This document shows positions 60 to 453 of a stretch of DNA of 49,067 bases, one piece after another (within the stretch, counting starts at the first letter, position 1; each line of letters opens with the position of its first letter). This DNA is from Planctomycetaceae bacterium (GTDB lineage Bacteria > Planctomycetota > Planctomycetia > Pirellulales > Pirellulaceae): contig JABJJO010000162.1 of the NCBI GenBank assembly GCA_018660825.1, positions 1 to 49,067 of the forward strand. Direction: 5' to 3'. The position numbers were made by a program, and so were the translations under genes. The notes beneath the pieces were generated by a model that was given only the letters and a program-made list of their open reading frames with translations, searched no databases and had not been told where the DNA came from.

Positions 60-99
60 ACCCACACTCAGGCGAATATCGCTGAAGGAAATTCGTATT

Positions 100-453
100 A
101 TGACGGAACAAATTGATTGGTATTTCCACCGACCAAGCTGAGCGACATGCACTAAATCGCAAGAGTTTCTTGCACACGCTGGTCTAACACCCTTAAGAAT
201 TGACAACGCGCGGAACGTCTCCTTTGGCGCTTCAGAGCTAACGCGGGTCATCGGTAACGCGACGATCGTCTATGCCATACGGGGGAAAAAAGTAGTGCGG
301 ATTGAGCTCCAAGCCGACAAAATGTCGCTGGCAAACGTTCAGAATTCAGTATTGGGACCAACTGGCAATTTACGCGCACCCGCGATTTTATCAGGCGACC
401 ATTTTATCGTAGGTTTCAATGCTGAGTTGTATGAACAACTATTGTGTGAATAA
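100..453 (+). CDS. Candidate selenoprotein: small ArsC/Spx-like thioredoxin-fold protein with TGA-encoded Sec14
   Basis: Reading from ATG 100 (GAAGGAA at 84-90 as ribosome-binding site) gives 117 codons to TAA 451-453. The single interruption is TGA at 139-141, codon 14. Around it the protein reads WYFHRPS-[TGA]-ATCTKSQEFL. This is the N-terminal beta strand, active-site loop and helix of an ArsC-like thioredoxin fold, with TGA where the first Cys of CxTC belongs and the resolving Cys kept at codon 17. The rest continues undamaged, with a GKKVV strand at about 66-70 and a GPTGNLRAP segment at about 88-96 that carries the expected cis-Pro before the last strand and helix. The length of about 117 aa fits ArsC-like proteins. 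A SECIS-like hairpin follows the TGA. Inference: a selenol-based reductase (UxxC), substrate unknown, possibly arsenate or a protein disulfide. The alternative is a pseudogene with one nonsense change. The exact codon position, the hairpin and the otherwise intact frame argue against that. It would need selA, selB, selC and selD elsewhere in the genome. Confidence 0.75.
141..180 (+). promoter_or_regulatory. Putative bacterial SECIS element
   Basis: Immediately after the in-frame TGA (139-141), GCAAGA at 159-164 pairs perfectly with TCTTGC at 168-173 around a 3-nt loop GTT (165-167). The loop begins 23 nt after the TGA, and its first base is G. Published bacterial SECIS rules ask for a loop of 3-14 nt, 16-37 nt after UGA, with a G among the first two loop bases, and all are met. 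AGCG at 141-144 can pair with CGCT at 177-180 to give an outer helix that includes the A of the UGA. The element is inside the coding sequence, as usual in bacteria. No structure-probing evidence is available. Confidence 0.65.

Follow-up and report, generated by a model that had tools for sequence, protein, structure and literature searches.

Selenoproteins that resemble ArsC were reported by Zhang et al. in 2006 (PMC1794560), and the GOS study of Zhang and Gladyshev in 2008 (PMC2398784) contains the entry "Arsenate reductase 2, cd03032, UxxC". The precedent among marine metagenomes for arsenate reductase-like selenoproteins, which an earlier note on the present DNA had mentioned, is therefore real. 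A UxxC ArsC-like form is found again in a 2022 review (PMC9312934). The catalogue of a 2026 review (PMC13188914) has NF041106 ArsC_rel_Se_1, described as "Arsenate reductase-like protein, UxxC" and cited to the GOS study, as well as an ArsC selenoprotein with UxxS under TIGR00014. In the literature searched, this review is the only source to give NF041106 by name. Selenoproteins of planctomycetes have been reported from Porphyra isolates (PMC4807772). The main text of two other selenoproteome papers makes no mention of ArsC, arsenate reductase or planctomycetes, nor does one of them mention Spx or the other Pirellula, and the passages on such selenoproteins give no tested function for the NF041106 family. 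The selenoprotein family is already catalogued and curated as NF041106; the gene described here is an addition to it.

The window is the whole stretch of DNA that was analysed, 49,067 nucleotides, and is an entire contig of a planctomycete genome of 4.94 Mb (221 contigs, 96.6% complete). It contains a gene (Table 1) that, with a probability of about 0.93, encodes a selenoprotein of the NF041106 family, with its UGA read as selenocysteine (Sec) by SelB and Sec-tRNA and with a thioredoxin-like UxxC redox protein as its product. A small planctomycete redox protein is thus predicted, very probably correctly, to carry Sec. A gene caller taking TGA as a stop would have ended the protein at residue 13 or dropped the gene, which has now been identified together with the Sec machinery, an RNA signal and relatives.

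Table 1. Features of the selenoprotein gene and its surroundings, in positions of the window
Feature	Position	Strand	Remarks
Shine-Dalgarno-like AAGGA	85..89	+	10 nt before ATG, read by eye
ArsC/Spx-like selenoprotein gene, NF041106 family	100..453	+	117 codons, TGA read as Sec (predicted)
TGA, proposed Sec codon 14	139..141	+	UxxC first position, just before helix 1
TGC, Cys17	148..150	+	UxxC second position
Bacterial SECIS-like hairpin	159..173	+	6-bp stem, GUU loop 165-167, UGA-loop 23 nt
GPTGNLRAP, codons 86-94	355..381	+	sequence and alignment of members

The frame opens with ATG at 100-102 and closes with TAA at 451-453, and codon 14 is its sole in-frame TGA. The peptide reads ...HRPS-U-ATCTK...GKKVV...GPTGNLRAP.... 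The coordinates of the frame and of its single TGA had been given correctly in the earlier note, which had also named a ribosome-binding site and an ATG and had read the UxxC pair and the two downstream segments from the translation as they are found here. Taken alone, the open frame around the TGA does not exceed the chance level: counting this one, the window has 14 TGA codons that are preceded by a start 10 or more codons away and followed by 90 or more open codons. This TGA is set apart from chance by the homology on either side of it, by its recurrence in relatives, and by the hairpin and the Sec machinery described below. No promoters or terminators were found in positions 1-600 of the window, where shuffled sequences yield about as many candidates.

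The protein scores 106.5 bits against the NCBIfam model NF041106, "ArsC family (seleno)protein" (cut-off 85), over residues 5-111 of 117, and the gene scores 98.9 bits from the DNA. It has the UxxC of this family with TGA as the Sec codon in first position, and it is a divergent member, at 46% identity or less to each of the other 92 rows in a tree of 93 loci, with no substantive difference. Homologues are present in 27 of the 98 genomes searched, including its own, and the other 26 have 31-43% identity on both sides of the TGA. In these 27 genomes the gene has an in-frame TGA in 23 (one of which, G002, also has a TAG) and no stop in four. A scan of a species-genome collection added the best 80 of 580 confirmed loci, ranked by similarity to a mostly-Sec alignment; among the taxa in their record titles are Planctomycetota, Acidobacteria, Binatia and Zixiibacteriota. 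For eleven of these loci the sequence surrounding the TGA is the same as at a locus of a relative in the 98-genome set; the MAGs Rhodopirellula sp. NAT69, Planctomycetaceae SP4 and UBA2972 therefore fall in the genus of the window. After removal of 11 duplicates from 107 loci, 96 distinct loci remained.

Of the 96 distinct loci, 88 have TGA and 8 have Cys in the first column of UxxC, which the earlier note had proposed to check for Cys or TGA. This proportion overstates the share of Sec because the best 80 of 580 were picked by similarity to a mostly-Sec alignment. Three of the 107 loci (L049, L075 and L110) were missed by the search pattern and read by hand; all have TGA, and they are part of this count and the covariation count, outside the codon-usage, bSECIS-rule and tree counts. 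In a sample of the phylum, TGA is found in 55 of the 65 matches above the NF041106 cut-off. Among 26 aligned members, residue 14 (Sec or Cys), C17, R11, R92, P94 and G105 are invariant, as are G86, P87, G89, L91, R92, A93 and P94 of the GPTGNLRAP segment. Selection at the amino-acid level persists past the TGA, with 52, 31 and 72 differences to locus L016 at codon positions 1, 2 and 3 over 102 codons.

A true stop or a sequencing error at this TGA, leaving a broken or misread Cys gene, would be compatible with a frame that is within chance, and also with the tree of 93 loci, where the window gene has the longest end branch (1.56). However, the three nearest downstream genes have diverged as well (38-65% identity to the same relatives), which accounts at least partly for the long branch. 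The identical TGA in 88 of the 96 loci (best 80 of 580 included), a hairpin kept at the RNA level and the Sec machinery of the same genome, including a SelD with its own TGA, all described here, make such a stop or error very improbable. At least six changes between Sec and Cys are seen on the tree, one of them forced by starred branches; the tree has too few columns to be resolved and does not fix the direction of the exchange.

A published set of rules for the bacterial SECIS (bSECIS) includes a loop of 3-9 nt, an upper stem of 4-16, a G among the first two loop nucleotides, a distance of 16-37 nt to the UGA and a minimum free energy of at most -7.5 (PMC13188914). The hairpin found past the TGA, GCAAGA-GUU-UCUUGC, is a SECIS-like structure of the kind for which the earlier note had proposed to search 139-190. 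With its GUU loop, its spacing of 23 and -8.4 kcal/mol for the 41-nt element, it falls within these rules. The bare 19-nt hairpin (-6.5 kcal/mol, z -4.39) is the only fold that stands out against shuffles; the 45-nt stretch past the UGA folds no better than shuffles (z -0.87), and when the UGA is included (139-180) a competing fold wins at -8.0 kcal/mol. The window hairpin is missing a seventh base pair (158-174). Among the 85 TGA forms, 82 have a hairpin that fits the rules and 71 have one that reaches -7.5 kcal/mol; among the 8 Cys forms the numbers are 4 and 3. The rules separate the two forms weakly. The sets of 85 and 79 TGA loci used here and below were drawn from the 96 distinct loci, which include the best 80 of 580.

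Codon usage in the 85 TGA loci is strongly biased over the hairpin. Of the 80 leucines at +10, 72 are encoded by CTT, which is the codon of 105 of the 917 leucines in other parts of these genes (Fisher p 6e-51). All 68 glutamates at +8 are encoded by GAG, compared to 262 of 594 in other parts. Nine loci have G-C in place of A-U as the uppermost stem pair, and with it Gly in place of Glu. Across the 79 ungapped TGA loci, 94.4% of cells are paired, whereas pairing drops to at most 69.3% when the partner is shifted by 1-3 columns. Changes on both sides of a pair occur in 15 cells, against a shuffled mean of 2.1, with none of 500 shuffles as high, although these shuffles ignore relatedness. Such changes are seen in three of the seven stem pairs. 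Two measures did not clear the controls in these 79 loci: 78 of the 500 shuffles have at least as many further pair types, and with the partner shifted by -2 there are likewise three pairs with double changes (9 cells). The codon bias and the compensatory changes indicate that the hairpin is constrained as RNA. The QEFLA peptide that follows UxxC is in large part dictated by this hairpin, since QEFLA is found in none of the eight Cys forms, where several stem pairs are also mostly lost.

The covariation count leaves out 9 of the 88 TGA loci, in which the downstream sequence is of another type. The usual QEFLA hairpin is missing in nine TGA loci (L053, L071, L072, L076, L079, L087, L098, L100 and L102), of which three (L072, L098 and L100) gave no hairpin that fits the bSECIS model. 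A different form of SECIS may be in use in this group.

The earlier note had proposed to look in the source genome for selA, selB, selC and selD, the set by which use of bacterial selenoproteins is recognized, and all four were found in it. SelA scores 535.9 bits, SelB 370.9 and SelD 355.2, each above its cut-off. The tRNA-Sec scores 63.9 bits with the Rfam model (gathering 47) and has the anticodon UCA, as read from the alignment; ARAGORN made no call of it in this genome. The selB gene is about 8 kb and selA about 10 kb from the tRNA-Sec gene on one contig. The selD gene is on a different contig and has a TGA of its own near the start, in YASCAGUAGK. SelD (L121:640-1689, G000:C110) is itself a predicted selenoprotein, with SCAGUAGK. 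As far as genes can tell, the source genome decodes Sec. The earlier note's proposal that this planctomycete uses Sec in an ArsC/Spx-like protein is thus supported, as a prediction, by the homologue column, the machinery and the hairpin.

The TGA form of the gene is also associated with the machinery in other genomes. In the phylum sample, selB is above its cut-off in 53 of 54 genomes with the TGA form and in 2 of 9 with the stop-free form only (Fisher p 5e-7). The independent events are fewer than these counts, because five of the seven stop-free genomes that do not have selB come from one family, and the stop-free form was confirmed as a Cys form in one of the nine. As the TGA form accompanies selB in this sample, the gene could help to recognize uncultured planctomycetes that use Sec. 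Of the 98 nearer genomes, 23 have the TGA form, and 21 of these have selB, compared with 34 of the 75 others (p 8e-5); however, all four stop-free genomes there have selB and selC. The selC threshold in this comparison, approximately 62 bits, was set by the analyst because 75 of the 98 genomes pass that of the family itself. At least one of selA, selB and selC is not above threshold in 5 of the 23 TGA-form relatives (G006, G008, G021, G084 and G086), and all three are below it in G008. In G006 and G008, two relatives from the same genus, the gene has the TGA and the hairpin, yet selA and selB are not above cut-off, and G008 is without a strong selC. The missing genes may be due to gaps in the assemblies or to a recent loss.

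Thioredoxin-like folds have their catalytic Cys just before helix 1. The predicted structure of the window protein (pLDDT 90.4) has a strand at 7-10, residue 14 and a helix at 15-26. Spx is the top match by sequence profile (1z3e, E 2.2e-9), by Foldseek (6gho, E 1.8e-4) and by VIA (3ihq, Z 9.0, rmsd 2.7, 88 aligned). The modelled fold is nearest to Spx, by a small margin over redoxins and ArsC; the next VIA matches, 1.1 to 1.6 Z lower, are YffB (7.9), NrdH (7.6), and glutaredoxin and ArsC (7.4). The Spx of TIGR01617 and the window protein are alike in fold, in the CxxC-type loop and in the LR-P and VG[FY]N segments, and differ in that the window protein has Sec in place of Cys, has a His before the loop and is far below the family cut-offs (18.6 of 75.05 for TIGR01617 and 23.5 of 123 for PRK01655). 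It could be proposed that the protein acts as Spx does, binding RNA polymerase to control stress genes as a redox switch, and that Sec makes this switch more sensitive. The agreement of the three methods and the loop of CTSC type and two segments aligned with Spx would fit this proposal, but the lead of Spx in VIA is small, a redoxin would look alike, the Spx models are not reached and no neighbouring gene family recurs in most loci, so that it is unlikely. The wider form of the proposal, in which the whole NF041106 family in Planctomycetota and other phyla is a selenium-based, Spx-like redox sensor acting as a selenol switch on RNA polymerase, is more improbable still.

An ArsC/Spx-like protein had been named in the earlier note, and the predicted fold agrees with this. 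Arsenate reductase as the function is not supported, for the arginine of the IGRPP segment is missing. The family name and the ArsC-type fold do speak for a selenium-using arsenate reductase, as does the catalogued UxxS selenoprotein mentioned above. The glutaredoxin-dependent ArsC of TIGR00014 also shares the fold with the window protein and has the spacing H-x3-C where the window protein has H-x3-U. The differences are a second Cys, in UxxC, and the missing arginine. Three true ArsC from the same genus have an IGRPP segment at the place where four aligned members of the family have VGFN or VGFH, and the arginine of IGRPP we take to belong to the arsenate-binding set (R60, R94 and R107 in E. 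coli). In addition, Pfam ArsC (PF03960) gives 19.3 bits, under its cut-off of 24, TIGR00014 is not among the matches at E up to 1, and a true ArsC is encoded separately in the genome (128.8 bits). A selenium-using arsenate reductase is therefore a doubtful reading. With the arginine missing and a separate ArsC in the same genome, the protein is likelier to be a selenol-thiol (Sec-Cys) reductase or switch.

For the selenoprotein with a UxxC redox pair, the frame, family, machinery, RNA-level constraint, conserved UxxC and predicted fold were computed; insertion of Sec in the cell, the redox cycle and the substrate we infer. SelB and Sec-tRNA would read the UGA as Sec, with the hairpin directing the insertion. 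The product would take up the thioredoxin-like ArsC/Spx fold, with Sec14, at the N-terminal end of helix 1, as the attacking residue and Cys17 as the resolving one, and the resulting Se-S bond may then be reduced by a general thiol system. Disulfides, peroxides and redox sensing are all possible as substrates or roles.

A function based on an operon was considered and rejected, as no neighbour family is common to most loci in an all-against-all comparison of 639 ORFs from 77 loci and the window. The largest cluster of neighbours, which is not annotated, is found in 13 of the 78 neighbourhoods; ten other representatives that were scanned gave no clue either. Downstream of the gene are a 318-residue protein (501-1457), hydrophobic by eye and without a Pfam match, and an aldose epimerase (1495-2427). 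Among the 78 neighbourhoods the former is found only in three relatives of the same genus, in which both genes are syntenic; they give no functional hint.

Some single loci are unusual. In L023:1501-1842 (genome G002, also L105), from the same genus, there is a TAG five codons past the TGA, with the hairpin and remaining frame intact; this may be due to sequencing error, decay or another cause. A contig titled as a Klebsiella pneumoniae MAG (L046) has the gene among neighbours that are common to Binatota and other MAG contigs, and is most likely misbinned. One genome has two family members above the cut-off, of which one is stop-free and the other has the TGA (G142:C12 and G142:C5). In a Zixiibacteriota MAG (L110:8001-8339), the TGA and the usual hairpin are present and the second Cys is replaced by Ser, giving UxxS.
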